Below the pieces are notes generated by a model, which was given only the letters and a program-made list of their open reading frames with translations, did no database searches and was not told the DNA's origin. From positions 1 through 28,998 of IMG/VR virus record IMGVR_UViG_3300044613_001006: 28,998 bases of DNA. The stretch is one strand, 5' to 3'. Shown piece by piece: positions 2,189-23,227 of the stretch (positions are counted from its first letter, which is position 1; the number at the start of each line of letters is the position of its first letter). A program made the translations under genes and the position numbers. Source of the stretch: a virus.

Positions 2189-2812
2189 TTACCATCTTGA
2201 CGGCATCCCCAAAGTGTTCCCATGCCCGACGTGATAAATCCATGTGACCTCCGGGCTGACCGCGATCCTCGCCCCTTCATGCGCGAGACGTCGGATCAGG
2301 TGGAAGTCCTCACCGACACGGTTGCCCTGAGCGTCGACCTCGTAACTTTCCGCGTCGAAGAACGCCGAATGGCCACCCACCTCAAGCAGGTACTCCCGCC
2401 GACCCATGTAAACACCCGTCATCTGTCGGGGGTTGTCGTAGTCGAACGGGACACCCCTGAACCGCTCGAGGTGGCCCGCGTCGGGAAGGTTCGAGTAACG
2501 GAAATGGGTGTACCCAATGTCGGCGTCGTTGTCCTGCACAAGGTTCCACAGTGTCTCAAGGTGATGCGGTAGGAACTCGTCATCATCAGCGAGGATCGCC
2601 ACCCACTCCGTCTGCGCCGTCCTCAAACAGGCGTCGAGCATCTTTGGTGCCCCGACCTTCTCAAAGTCCGACAAGATCAAGTGCGCTAGCGGCTTGACCG
2701 TCTGATCCATCACGCTCTGCATTGCACGGCTCAACAGTTGACCGCGCGGCGGAATCGTCGGAGTGCAAACCGTGACCGGGATCCGGTTCTCCCCCCACGT
2801 CAGCGTTCCCAT
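2189..2812 (-). CDS. family 2 glycosyltransferase (GT-A)
   Basis: A 207-aa family 2 glycosyltransferase. It has the N-terminal strand and donor-loop pattern VTVCTPTIPPRG, a segment PLAHLILSD, and the metal-binding acidic triad ADDDEF at residues 75-80, followed by the usual LPHHLETL helix. The C-terminal part carries a GEDFHLIRRL motif, the acceptor-side ED of family 2 enzymes. I use the ATG at 2812, which overlaps the previous gene's stop by 13 bases and has AAGGGGA upstream; a longer reading frame exists but would lie inside the neighbour. It is adjacent to and co-transcribed with a second GT-A-like gene, so the two may act in sequence on the same acceptor. The sugar and acceptor are unknown. 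Confidence 0.88.
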   Translation of the reverse strand: MGTLTWGENRIPVTVCTPTIPPRGQLLSRAMQSVMDQTVKPLAHLILSDFEKVGAPKMLDACLRTAQTEWVAILADDDEFLPHHLETLWNLVQDNDADIGYTHFRYSNLPDAGHLERFRGVPFDYDNPRQMTGVYMGRREYLLEVGGHSAFFDAESYEVDAQGNRVGEDFHLIRRLAHEGARIAVSPEVTWIYHVGHGNTLGMPSRW

Positions 2813-3441
2813 ATGACCGTTCCCCTTCCCCCGCCTGTGATGACGGTTCCGCCTGGCAGGTGTCTCGTGCTTTCGTCCGTGCCTTTGAGGTGGCGCATGT
2901 ACGCGCCGACCGGAGCCCACACAGGCACCTCGTCGGCCTGCAACTTCAACGACAGCCTGTAGTCGGACTGGAACCCAGGGTCGCCTTTCGGATCGAACCC
3001 GTATTTGAGCCACATATCGCGCGACATGAACGTGAGTGAGAAGCCGGCGAAGTAGGACCGGAACAGCCCCGTCCCACCCGTCACGTACTCCCGTGAAGCA
3101 AACCCGTAGTCGGCATAACTTGGGCTGTCAAGAACGGGCAGCGGTAAGTCGGTCAGGTTGACCAGCTCGGAGGCGTCGTCAAGGTTGCAATACCCCGTGT
3201 AAACGCTAGACGGCTCGAACGCACCCAGGAGGAGGTCGAGCGAGCGCTGGGTGGGGATCACGTCATCGCTGACCAGGCCGATAACGTCATGGTCCGAATC
3301 GGCAACCACTTCGGCTATACGGTCGACCAGTTCACGCTCCGTCCAATGCTTCAACCACACTTTGTCGATGTTGAGTGCGCTGATCGCCGTGATGCACGGC
3401 TCAATGTTCCGGGGGCTCATAACCATGAGCAGCGGCTTCAT
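2800..3441 (-). CDS. GT-A-like glycosyltransferase
   Basis: A 213-aa protein related in layout to GT-A glycosyltransferases. It has an N-terminal LLMVMSPRN strand and loop, a VIGLVSDDVIP motif at about residues 53-63 that provides the DD metal site, and a conserved-looking FAGFSLTFMSRDMW acceptor region. The C-terminal 40 residues are Gly/Thr-rich. The ATG at 3441 has GAAAGGA upstream. It belongs to the group of three GT-A genes near this end, and its stop overlaps the next glycosyltransferase. The match to family 2 is weaker than for its neighbours, so the exact enzyme class is less sure. Confidence 0.75.
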   Translation of the reverse strand: MKPLLMVMSPRNIEPCITAISALNIDKVWLKHWTERELVDRIAEVVADSDHDVIGLVSDDVIPTQRSLDLLLGAFEPSSVYTGYCNLDDASELVNLTDLPLPVLDSPSYADYGFASREYVTGGTGLFRSYFAGFSLTFMSRDMWLKYGFDPKGDPGFQSDYRLSLKLQADEVPVWAPVGAYMRHLKGTDESTRHLPGGTVITGGGRGTVIWER

Positions 3442-5159: not shown

Positions 5160-5371
5160 TTTTTGCTTCCCATCCGGTCGACCATCTCGACCAACTCGTC
5201 ACTACTCATCCGCGCTAACGTCTGCTGCGCGGCCCGATACCTGAACGCCTGCTCCACCGTCTGAAACTTGAACCCCGCAACACGGAGATCAGCGAGCGTC
5301 CGCCGTTCCCACGCCGCGTGAGCGTTCAGAATCCGGTCGAGGAGTGCCGCCCGCTGCCTACCCGACCTCAC
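5156..5371 (-). CDS. small helical protein in the replication operon, unknown function
   Basis: A 71-aa, strongly helical and Arg/Ala-rich protein (RAALLDRILNAHAAWERRTL, then LADLRVAGF and EQAFRYRAAQQTLARM). I do not recognise its family. The GTG at 5371 overlaps the stop of the helicase-loader-like gene as GTGA, and its own stop overlaps the SSB start the same way. Such placement suggests a replication accessory, but the sequence shows no motif. Confidence 0.65.
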   Translation of the reverse strand: MRSGRQRAALLDRILNAHAAWERRTLADLRVAGFKFQTVEQAFRYRAAQQTLARMSSDELVEMVDRMGSKK

Positions 5372-5763
5372 GCCAGCCCCCACTCAGGGACCGGGGCGAA
5401 CCCCGCGTCCACACACTGCCGGTTGTACCTCGCACGCTCAGCCGCAATCCGCGCAGAATCCTTCGACCTGTGCGCCTCCATCAACGCCGCCTCATTGAAC
5501 GGACGGGGAGCCGAACCCACAGATGCCTCTGGAAGGCCCTGTGCGGCCCGCTGACGCGCTATCGCCTTAGCCCCCGCCACTACATGCGCGGGCGACAAAT
5601 ACTCCGTAGAGGAGCGCCTGTGCAGCCTTACAGCCTCAACCGCATCATCGAACCGCAAATAGTTGATCGTGTCATGCCACTCAGCGACCACCACGTCGGA
5701 CACCTCACGGTTATCACCGACCTGAATCTTGCCCAGCAGCGTCGCCGTCTCACTCACGTTCAT
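5368..5763 (-). CDS. putative helicase loader (G39P-like)
   Basis: A 131-aa protein. The N-terminal part has the pattern of G39P-type helicase loaders: an N-terminal helix (SETATLLGKIQ), a WHDTI helix, an F-D-D-A-x-x-A-V segment and a hydrophobic end (TEYLSPAHVVAG). A basic, helical C-terminal half follows. Family members deliver the replicative DnaB-type helicase to origin-bound initiator. The gene lies directly after the initiator gene with a four-base ATGA overlap, mirroring lambda O-P order. No replicative DnaB helicase is encoded here, so it would act on the host helicase. The family call is by pattern only and may be wrong. Confidence 0.6.
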   Translation of the reverse strand: MNVSETATLLGKIQVGDNREVSDVVVAEWHDTINYLRFDDAVEAVRLHRRSSTEYLSPAHVVAGAKAIARQRAAQGLPEASVGSAPRPFNEAALMEAHRSKDSARIAAERARYNRQCVDAGFAPVPEWGLA

Positions 5764-6518
5764 GCCAACTCCTTCTGCGCTGATTGCGCCTGCAACCGGC
5801 GACCGATCTCCACCGTGGCCATGAACCGGTCATCCTTCGACGGGCCACCTTGAGCCGGCAGCGGACCGTTCGCCCATGCGTCCGCGTTCAACCACGTAGC
5901 CGGATGTTTCGTGAACGACGCCTCCCGATTCGGATCTCCCGCATACTGCCGAGCACCCGCGATGATCGCGTCCGCCGTCGCCCGTTTCACAGCCCGCTCA
6001 AACGCCGACTCTGCGGTCCGCTTGTCGTGCTTCCGCGGATACACCGACCAAAACTCCGCGAACCTCGAGCTAGCTTTTTCTTTAGCTTTCTTTGTCTCTA
6101 TCTCTGTCTCTAACTCTGTCTCTGCCCGGATTTGCCCGGGCACTTGCCCGACGTTTGCCCCAGTTGCCTGCAATTGCTGGGCACGACCGCGACGCCCAGC
6201 CTCCGAACGCACCGCAGAAAGCGCATCACGGTCCGCCGTCGTCTGCTGATGCCGCGCATAATCGCGAATCACATACACGCCCTCCTCGAGGACCACAATC
6301 GGCCTCTCAGGGTGCGACCCGACCAGCTCCGCCAGCACCTCCCCCGACCACAATCGGGTAGCCATCGCAGCGGGGATCCGCCCATCCAAGTCCTGCATCC
6401 GCGAGTAGCCGTTCATCTCCACGAACGTCCACTTCGCCTCGGTGGAGAGTGGCGCGATCTTCGGGTGCATCCAGAAGTCGTTAGGGAACGTCATGTAAAG
6501 CCGTTCATCTTTCGGCAC
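5760..6518 (-). CDS. phage replication initiator, lambda O-like layout
   Basis: A 252-aa protein. The N-terminal 110 residues (FPNDFWMHPKIAPLSTEA, then MNGYSRMQDLDGRI) look like the winged-helix DNA-binding domain of phage replisome organisers. A linker of low sequence complexity (ETELETEIETKKAKEK, about residues 133-148) joins a C-terminal domain FAEFWSVYPRKHDKRTA...ATWLNADAW seen in many phage initiators. It would bind origin repeats and recruit helicase. The linker region of the gene itself carries the repeat array described at 6071-6180. GTG start with a GAGGAG binding site. The gene order initiator, then loader, then SSB supports the role. Confidence 0.82.
   Translation of the reverse strand: MPKDERLYMTFPNDFWMHPKIAPLSTEAKWTFVEMNGYSRMQDLDGRIPAAMATRLWSGEVLAELVGSHPERPIVVLEEGVYVIRDYARHQQTTADRDALSAVRSEAGRRGRAQQLQATGANVGQVPGQIRAETELETEIETKKAKEKASSRFAEFWSVYPRKHDKRTAESAFERAVKRATADAIIAGARQYAGDPNREASFTKHPATWLNADAWANGPLPAQGGPSKDDRFMATVEIGRRLQAQSAQKELA
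6071..6180. other. candidate replication origin: iterons plus AT-rich tract
   Basis: On the plus strand six heptamers close to TTGCCCG occur at 6122, 6132, 6144, 6155, 6164 and 6174 (variants CTGCCCG, TTGCCCG twice, TTGCCCC, TTGCCTG, TTGCTGG). Spacings are 10, 12, 11, 9 and 10 bases, near one helical turn and not multiples of three, so they are not simply a protein repeat. Two copies form an inverted repeat, CGGGCA/TGCCCG at 6137-6150. Directly beside them, 6071-6120 is a pyrimidine-rich tract with 18 G/C in 50 bases. Iterons followed by an AT-rich unwinding element inside the initiator gene is the lambda ori layout. Function is inferred. Confidence 0.6.
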
Positions 6519-6527
6519 GCGAACTCC

Positions 6528-7415
6528 TCACCCCATGTCGAACGTGGGTTGCGCCATTTCGTCAACCAGTGCGGACAGGTATTCGCACGCAGTGTTGTAG
6601 TAGGACGCCTTCAACTCGATCCCAAGGAACCTACGACCCCACTTCACTGCGACGTAACCTTCTGAACCGACGCCAGCGAATGCCGAAAACACCAACTCTC
6701 CGGGGTTGGTGTACAGCCGAACGTATCGCTCCGTGAAACCCAGTTGCAGCGGGGTTAGGTGTCTTTCATCGTCGTCCTCGCGGGCGATTCTTGCGTTCAG
6801 AGTGTCGTTCTCGCTAATCCCGTACCAGATCGGACGTGCATATTCGATCCATTCCTCGTTGGTGACGTCAGTCTTGACCTGAACATCACGCTCGCCCGGC
6901 TTCTTGAATATAAGCCCGTAATCCGCCAGCGCCATACGTGACAGTGAACTGTCGCGATTCTTCGTCACGAACATCAACGAATGCGCCTTGGTGCGAATCG
7001 CCTGAGCCTGCGGATCCTTGTCCACTACGTTCTCACCGAAGTAGATGAAGCCGGCCGCCTGGTATGCGCGAATCACATCCCCGCGAAAGTCAGTCAGCCC
7101 GACCGTACCGTGCGTGCTCTTCGTTGTAGTGGTTTGCTGGACGTGGACAATGCACTCGGTGCCCGGTTTCTGAATGCGGTAGTTTTCGCGGATGATGTAG
7201 CCGTACTGCTCGAAGAAGTCGTCCCTGTCGAGACTGTTGCCCATGTCTCGAGGCGAGGGCGAGTAGGTGTAGAGCGACTGAAACGGCGGGGAATAGATCG
7301 ACAAATCGACCGTTTCCGACTCGATCTCAGCCATGCGTTCTGCGCTGTCGCCCAGCCACATCTCCCATCCGTGACCCTTAGTCTCTTCGGTAATGTAGGC
7401 GTCTTCGTTGCTCAT
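6528..7415 (-). CDS. DNA N6-adenine/N4-cytosine methyltransferase
   Basis: A 295-aa DNA methyltransferase. The catalytic motif IV is SPPF at residues 42-45, and the AdoMet-binding motif I is FAGVGSEG at 246-253, followed by the motif II acidic segment GRRFLGIEL. The order IV first and I late is that of beta-class amino-methyltransferases. SPPF occurs in enzymes making N4-methylcytosine or N6-methyladenine, so the target base is not fixed by sequence. No restriction nuclease is beside it, so it is an orphan enzyme that may protect phage DNA from host restriction. ATG with AGGAG. It overlaps the helicase gene by four bases. Confidence 0.88.
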   Translation of the reverse strand: MSNEDAYITEETKGHGWEMWLGDSAERMAEIESETVDLSIYSPPFQSLYTYSPSPRDMGNSLDRDDFFEQYGYIIRENYRIQKPGTECIVHVQQTTTTKSTHGTVGLTDFRGDVIRAYQAAGFIYFGENVVDKDPQAQAIRTKAHSLMFVTKNRDSSLSRMALADYGLIFKKPGERDVQVKTDVTNEEWIEYARPIWYGISENDTLNARIAREDDDERHLTPLQLGFTERYVRLYTNPGELVFSAFAGVGSEGYVAVKWGRRFLGIELKASYYNTACEYLSALVDEMAQPTFDMG

Positions 7416-22039: not shown

Positions 22040-23227
22040 TTATCCGGGGAACCGTTTAGAAAGAAACGGCAACCAATACTCTGACCAAACCCGTTCAACG
22101 TCGAACGCCTGCGCGAACTCCACACACACATCCGACACGCCACGCGGGGCCTCATAAGCCAACTCGAGCGCGGCCACAATCGACCCGACCAGCGGCACCT
22201 GCATCCACGCGCAGTGCGGCTCATTCCACAACGGGTTACCCTGCACCAGCCAGCACTCCTCGGACACCAGATCCGGGGTTGCAGCCCAACTCGAACCAAT
22301 GACCCTAGTCCCACAAGCCTGAGCTTCGATTGTGGGGACCCCGAACCCCTCCCCGTAGGAAGGTGCCAGAAGTACATTAAAGGCGCTGTAAAAGCCTGCT
22401 AGGGCTTCCTGCGGGTACCCCACACGCAACCGTTCCGAATCGGCAATGATCACGTCATCGTCGGACAGATTGCACGCTCGCAACAGGTCGATGATCTTGA
22501 ACCCGCCGAAAGCGTTAGACGGCTCCATATGCAGATACAGCTGCGCGTCGGGTTTCGACCGCTTCAACTCCGCGAACGCCAGGAACGACTCAGCGAGCGC
22601 CTTACGATGAATCACCCCGTTCGCTTTGTTCGCCGCGACCATTCCAACCAGGAAGGCGTCGTCGTTGACCCCGAGGTAGCGGCGGGCAGGCACACCCTCG
22701 ATCGTGTCCACCGGGCGGAAGATCCGCGTATCCACCGCGTGCGGGATGTAGTGCGAGGCAATGCCGGCGTCCTCGAGTTGCCGCTGACCGTGCGGTGCCA
22801 TCGTGACCGGTGTGACGTTCGGTTTCAAGAGAAACTTTGCCACCCTCGGCGGCAGCGACACATGATCAAGAGGTGTCCACGCCAGCACAGGCGCGTCAAC
22901 TTTCGCATCGTTGAAAACCCACTGGTCATACAAGGTCACGATCGCGTCAGGCTGACCCGGATGTTTCGTCTTGTGCTGCTCATGCCACAGATTCACAACG
23001 TCCTCGGAGTACGCCTTGAATCCGCGCGGGTAGTGGTCGACTTTCCCGTGCGGGGTCTTGATAACACCAACCGACCCCTCATGCCCGTAATTGCTGAGCA
23101 TGGCAACATCCAGCCCATGCTTCACCATCCGGTCGATCAGGTAAGTGGTTTGCACCCCGTACCCGGTACTCGTCCCATACGAGTTAGAGGCGACGCTGAT
23201 AGTGCCTCGAAGTTTCGCAAACGCCAT
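22040..23227 (-). CDS. GT-B (family 4-like) glycosyltransferase
   Basis: A 395-aa GT-B enzyme. The N-terminal Rossmann half starts TISVASNSYG with the Gly-rich loop STGYGVQ, and the C-terminal half has the donor-site motif E293-x7-E301 (EGFGVPTIE) and ACGTRVIGSS. The family transfers sugar from a nucleotide donor with retention. The gene lies between capsid and connector genes, after a terminator. This suggests a moron with its own promoter. Glycosylation of the capsid or tail is known for some mycobacteriophages; here it is an inference. Modification of host surface sugar is another option. Confidence 0.9.
   Translation of the reverse strand: MAFAKLRGTISVASNSYGTSTGYGVQTTYLIDRMVKHGLDVAMLSNYGHEGSVGVIKTPHGKVDHYPRGFKAYSEDVVNLWHEQHKTKHPGQPDAIVTLYDQWVFNDAKVDAPVLAWTPLDHVSLPPRVAKFLLKPNVTPVTMAPHGQRQLEDAGIASHYIPHAVDTRIFRPVDTIEGVPARRYLGVNDDAFLVGMVAANKANGVIHRKALAESFLAFAELKRSKPDAQLYLHMEPSNAFGGFKIIDLLRACNLSDDDVIIADSERLRVGYPQEALAGFYSAFNVLLAPSYGEGFGVPTIEAQACGTRVIGSSWAATPDLVSEECWLVQGNPLWNEPHCAWMQVPLVGSIVAALELAYEAPRGVSDVCVEFAQAFDVERVWSEYWLPFLSKRFPG

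Follow-up and report, generated by a model that had tools for sequence, protein, structure and literature searches.

Does a group of short phased repeats inside a replication initiator gene mark the site at which a phage begins to copy its genome? The question is raised by an isolated virus record 28,998 bases long (the window; it may be a fragment), in which a repeat array and an AT-rich tract lie side by side within one gene. We consider it highly likely that positions 6071–6180 are a replication origin located in the linker-coding part of the initiator gene, at which an N-terminal winged helix would bind iterons with a period of about 11 bp, the adjoining tract would unwind, and the helicase would be loaded via the C-terminal domain and neighbouring proteins.

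The initiator gene and its neighbours

The gene at 5760–6518 (minus strand, GTG start) encodes a protein of 252 amino acids, which is of the RepA-like or replisome-organizer type according to its PHROG profile matches, namely the replication initiation protein phrog_270 (E 3.4e-20), phrog_22834 and phrog_9474. Relatives were found in 144 phage records, mainly of Arthrobacter, Gordonia and Mycobacterium. Pfam gave no family for this protein, and neither sequence nor fold searches of the PDB returned a match; its neighbours in a viral fold library are replisome organizers, DUF1376 proteins and HTH proteins of actinophages. Judged by family and fold neighbours, the product is a predicted replication initiator.

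Two domains can be distinguished. The N-terminal domain (residues ~1–91; 6246–6518, minus strand) has the order H-E-H-H-E-E of a winged helix in an AlphaFold2 model, with pLDDT ~90 over residues 20–80, while confidence is low for the linker at residues 115–143. From this model and from an exchange between two mycobacteriophages described below, we propose it as the iteron reader. The C-terminal domain (FAEFWSVYPRK...FTKHPATWLN; 5841–6071, minus strand) is common to initiators with other N-terminal domains, and in tblastn searches many Arthrobacter phages match residues ~150–231 only. This domain may be the contact for the helicase or its loader.

The next gene (5368–5763, minus strand; 131 amino acids) was called helicase-loader-like in the initial annotation. 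It does adjoin the initiator gene, and it stands in conserved synteny with a gene in the related locus L002 (L002:6804–7220), whose product is 46% identical; it is a possible helicase loader. The identification as a loader found no backing in family, PDB-sequence or fold searches: its profile matches (phrog_6055 and phrog_8924) are both of unknown function, and its structural model is of low confidence (pLDDT 61.5) and matched no solved loader structure in the PDB with confidence. In phages Catfish, Birdsong, Rousseau, Howe and Kithara, the annotation places a DnaB-like helicase gene next after that of the initiator.

Iteron array and tandem tract in the window

The initial annotation described six heptamers near TTGCCCG, spaced by 9–12 bases and out of step with the codons, and all of them were located. 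On the plus strand they read CTGCCCG (6122–6128), TTGCCCG (6132–6138 and 6144–6150), TTGCCCC (6155–6161), TTGCCTG (6164–6170) and TTGCTGG (6174–6180), the last being degenerate with 2 mismatches. The array thus spans 6122–6180 and belongs to the minus strand, where the gene-strand core is (C/G)GGGCAA. Start-to-start spacings are 10, 12, 11, 9 and 10 bp (mean 10.4), which are not codon steps and are less regular than those of the arrays in relatives.

The whole window was split into 191 blocks and scanned without bias for 7-mers at 9–13-bp spacing. This array ranked first of the 191, with 29.7 bits against a 99th percentile of 25.4. When the sequence was shuffled with codons preserved and the protein kept, the array score was reached in 2 of 300 shuffles with 7-mers and in 4 of 100 with 8-mers, and by these generic de novo scores the case from the window alone is moderate. 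Five GCAA cores chained at 9–13 bp arose in only 3 of 20,000 synonymous shuffles, a figure that is somewhat optimistic because the core was picked after viewing the relatives and the window together; the chain is unique in the window, where other chains reach at most 2.

On the gene strand the array is followed by a tandem tract of (GAGACA)n variants (6089–6124, minus strand; 6/12-bp repeat in TRF), which joins the last iteron directly (CGGGCAGAGACAGAG). The tract overlaps an AT-rich segment at 6071–6120 (no strand assigned), and the two together are proposed as the DNA unwinding element. The count of 18 G/C in these 50 bases given in the initial annotation is correct, and 50-mers equally poor in G/C occur at four places only in the window. 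The same annotation stated that the encoded protein has no repeat in this region. This is true for the iterons and fails for the tract, which encodes ETELETEIET, a protein repeat arising from the 6-bp DNA tandem. The order of iterons and then AT-rich tract in the direction of the gene, which had also been pointed out, is seen in the window and is kept in relatives.

Arrays in relatives with fused genes

Viral contigs and annotated phages supplied further loci with a gene for the same N-terminal domain; many of these loci are related, and the counts below are not independent. Fused genes, which contain the N-terminal domain together with the C-terminal part, carry a clade-specific array at the same place in the linker DNA. 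Generally, these arrays have a GCAA-like core, 11–12-bp spacing and about 4–7 copies. For example, L002 contains five copies of ATGGCAA at 11, 12, 11 and 11 bp, and six copies of AGCAAA at 11–12 bp are found in L004, L005 and L007. Other clades have CGAATCG in four copies (L015), the AATCGCA type in five copies (L037, Brevibacterium phage Rousseau) or TTAGCGA/TAAGCGA (the Typha/Catfish group). In most fused loci the array runs straight into the tandem tract, as in L002 (...GGTATGGCAGAGACAGAGACAGAG...).

In 10 of 16 fused loci the array was equalled in 0–1 of 300 synonymous shuffles, next to 2 of 300 for the window, 7 of 300 for L036 and 9 of 300 for L068. Among the fused loci, the arrays of Catfish (92/300), Kithara (47/300) and ThulaThula (18/300) are not convincing by this generic test; nor, among all loci examined, are those of L085 (27/300) and BIM BV-113 (14/300) by its shuffles.

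The unit of the tract also differs among clades. It is (GAGACA)n in most fused genes, and (GAACAA)n, (GACATA)n, (AGAACC)n, (GGGGAACA)n and others are found elsewhere.

A linker array was also observed beside an unrelated N-terminal domain. Arthrobacter phage Andrew (L040:1530–2318) shares the C-terminal domain, and its linker contains four copies of GAACCGT at 11, 11 and 12 bp (3 of 300 synonymous shuffles).

Conservation of the linker at the DNA level

An array within a coding region may simply follow from its protein. According to this explanation, a low-complexity acidic/basic linker is what is constrained, and repeated codons or slippage bring about the DNA repeats as a side effect. The tract does encode ETETET-type repeats, slippage generates tandem repeats, and the window iterons by themselves are marginal. 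However, the L002 iterons stand in codon phases 1, 0, 0, 2 and 1, so that all three phases are used within one gene, and synonymous sites are conserved. At conserved amino acids, synonymous-site identity in the L005 group is 96% in the linker against 74% and 66% elsewhere in the gene, and in the Catfish group it is 88% against 55% and 40%. In the comparison of the window with L002, 11 of 13 codons are identical in the linker against 49 of 106 elsewhere (Fisher p 0.009). All of these are pairwise counts that are not independent of one another.

Codon choice in the tract is uniform as well: ACA accounts for 35 of 35 threonine codons there against 42 of 221 over the remainder of these genes, a contrast inflated by slippage and shared descent, and for 9% of threonine codons in 18 genes of the window. 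Arrays are also present in non-coding DNA (next section). On the strength of these copies, of the rotation through codon phases and of the conserved synonymous sites, the protein-coding explanation was rejected, and we regard protein-level constraint as extremely unlikely.

It is the DNA of the linker that is conserved rather than its protein. Conserved repeats with synonymous-site conservation were what the initial annotation had proposed to look for in related phages. Phased repeats and such conservation were both found while the linker protein sequence changes, the reverse of the pattern it had set against an origin (repeats lost, linker protein kept).

Arrays downstream of shorter genes and exchange of the N-terminal domain

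Relatives of ~130–175 amino acids consisting of the N-terminal domain only are encoded by Arthrobacter phages MidnightRain, Tiff81, Phrank15, Isolde, Kukla, MargaretKali, KBurrousTX and ArV1, by Glutamicibacter phage BIM BV-113 and by metagenomic relatives. In these loci the array lies 3' of the stop codon in DNA annotated as non-coding in nearly all cases (MargaretKali has a hypothetical ORF of 52 aa annotated across it), and a short tandem tract comes next in most. For example, KBurrousTX has ATCGCAA at 11–12 bp and then (AGAACC)n, MidnightRain has GCGGCAA repeats and then GCAGAGTTAAGAG, and Kukla has TAGCAAA repeats and then ATTAACC repeats. None of 300 dinucleotide shuffles equalled the array in 10 of 13 such loci. 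The position of these arrays outside the coding sequence removes the protein-coding explanation.

A natural recombinant connects the array with the N-terminal domain. In mycobacteriophages ThulaThula and Phayonce, the DNA that starts just past the tract is ~97% identical up to the end of the gene, and the DNA ahead of it is unrelated. By this comparison, the N-terminal domain, iterons and tract were exchanged as one block, and their joint replacement ties iteron identity to the N-terminal domain. The Phayonce gene (L042:1428–2309) has a different N-terminal domain, its own TCGCGAG repeats (2 of 300 shuffles) and an 8-bp tandem tract of (GGGGAACA)n in the linker. Phage PFR1 (L041:1500–2345) has an N-terminal domain similar to that of Phayonce and an EEQRNRGTGEN linker, and the two phages form a second clade of intragenic arrays.

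These positions bear on whether the repeats might instead be an autoregulatory operator, through which the HTH domain of the initiator represses its own operon or the next gene. The sites do fall within, or just past, a gene whose product is a winged-helix protein, with the next gene downstream of them, and split loci have a non-coding gap before that next gene. However, the array of fused genes is in mid-gene, away from the promoter end, a tandem or AT-rich tract adjoins it on the same side although an operator needs none, and the family of the protein carries a replication-initiation annotation. We judge an operator in place of an origin to be unlikely; autoregulation can coexist with origin function.

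Plasmid iteron arrays also have partition, incompatibility or copy-control roles, and the repeats could by this token be a parS-like site of that kind, or a prophage-maintenance element, and not an initiation site. No ParA or ParB was seen among the window genes examined, and the array is linked to the N-terminal domain of an initiator, so such a role is very unlikely here. The origin reading, which began as a candidate in the initial annotation, is supported by the phased arrays of relatives, by the synonymous-site conservation and by the non-coding arrays at shorter genes; with these relatives it is much better founded than on the window by itself.

Another element is conserved in the phages with N-domain-only genes. 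Its two complementary arms are placed around AATCGTCACCTAAGTAACGCG, past the tract and ahead of the start of the following gene (L071:2081–2145, and the same place in L073, L075–L079, L083–L089 and L092). The arms are TCAATCA...TGATTGA, with TCAGTCA...TGACTGA in Kukla and TCGTCGAA...TTCGACGA in L079. The element had no Rfam match at the gathering level. A MAFFT alignment yielded no consensus structure with RNAalifold, which may reflect register shifts of the arms.

Comparison with known origins and a proposed mechanism

The best reading of the array plus tract, from its sequence features, is an origin of the lambda ori or SPP1 oriL type, with repeats beyond chance and coding and an adjoining AT-rich tract downstream. 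As in lambda ori, where gene O contains the site of the O-some, the initiator gene contains the repeats, an AT-rich tract adjoins them and replication genes are neighbours (PMC7466680). The iterons of lambda are 19-bp imperfect inverted repeats in four copies, or six in Stx phages (PMC7466680), whereas here the period is ~11 bp with a GCAA core, about 4–7 copies and a tandem tract of short repeats. Lambda ori proper was accordingly rejected for the lack of ~19-bp inverted-repeat iterons, and no profile match to the lambda O family was seen.

SPP1, compared by its published description, has oriL in gene 38, with direct repeats and an AT-rich unwinding element inside the initiator gene, a dedicated loader and a DnaB-type helicase (G38P, G39P and G40P; PMC6316719). 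The intragenic repeats and the AT-rich element are alike. SPP1 has a second origin, oriR, whereas no second array was found in the window. Iteron plasmids such as RK2, F and R6K, and the DnaA-trio or DUE repeats, also combine phased iterons with an adjacent unwinding element that bears repeats and is contacted in single-stranded form by Rep or DnaA (PMC10797057); the array here differs in being intragenic, with a coding tandem tract, in fused genes.

In cluster A mycobacteriophages (Miko, Rachaly), RepA is sufficient for replication and the origin was suspected within or next to repA, and no repeats were reported between the tail genes and parS-L (PMC7157519). Homology of the window initiator to Miko RepA was rejected (BLASTP best E 0.24, not significant), and an array scan of Miko repA found no convincing array. 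An origin based on DnaA boxes was rejected as well: 7 one-mismatch TTRTCCACA sites occur in the window against 8.0 expected, none of them at 6.1 kb. The GC-skew profile suggested in the initial annotation for mapping the replication start was of no use, as there is no clear switch near 6.1 kb.

By analogy with lambda (PMC7466680), SPP1 (PMC6316719) and iteron plasmids (PMC10797057), we infer iteron binding, strand opening and helicase loading as follows. The winged-helix domain would bind five to six short GCAA-core iterons, and the spacing of about one helical turn would align the bound protomers on one face of the DNA. This nucleoprotein array would destabilise the tandem-hexamer/AT-rich tract next to it. 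Once open, the strand would take the replicative helicase via the C-terminal domain of the initiator and neighbouring proteins.

The tract may contribute more than easy melting. Its gene strand is T-poor in many clades, so the partner strand has short-period T residues, and single-strand contacts of plasmid Rep proteins at T residues are known (PMC10797057). One tentative idea, which we hold to be possible but on the whole doubtful, is that the tract is a second sequence-specific element, with short-period repeats read single-stranded by the initiator or helicase. It would be DnaA-trio-like but of a new kind, with the ETETET linker of many actinophage initiators as its coding by-product.

Origins inside initiator genes have precedents, from which the present case departs in its ~11-bp GCAA-core iterons, in a tandem tract that gives rise to ETETET linkers, in having two gene architectures and in its spread across actinophages; no description of the array was found in the open-access literature (subscription papers were not covered, and this is not proof of absence). 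The array plus tract is very probably the replication start of many phages of soil actinobacteria, which would provide a large group of phages, those of Arthrobacter, Gordonia, Mycobacterium, Curtobacterium and Brevibacterium, with a concrete origin that can be tested and explain the odd ETETET linkers of their initiators as the coding by-product of a DNA element. The origin would stay tied to the DNA-binding domain, lying within the gene in the presence of a fused C-terminal domain and immediately past its end otherwise. Matched initiator-origin pairs could serve as small replicons for these hosts.

Other genes of the window

Directly upstream of the initiator gene lies an N6/N4 DNA methyltransferase gene (Pfam N6_N4_Mtase; 6528–7415), and methyltransferase genes adjoin the initiator also in Rousseau, Andrew and Vulpecula. 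This small phage window contains three glycosyltransferase-like genes (386–1039, 2189–3013 and 22040–23227), with matches to the galactosyl transferase phrog_29879 and the glycosyltransferases phrog_14775 and phrog_2170.
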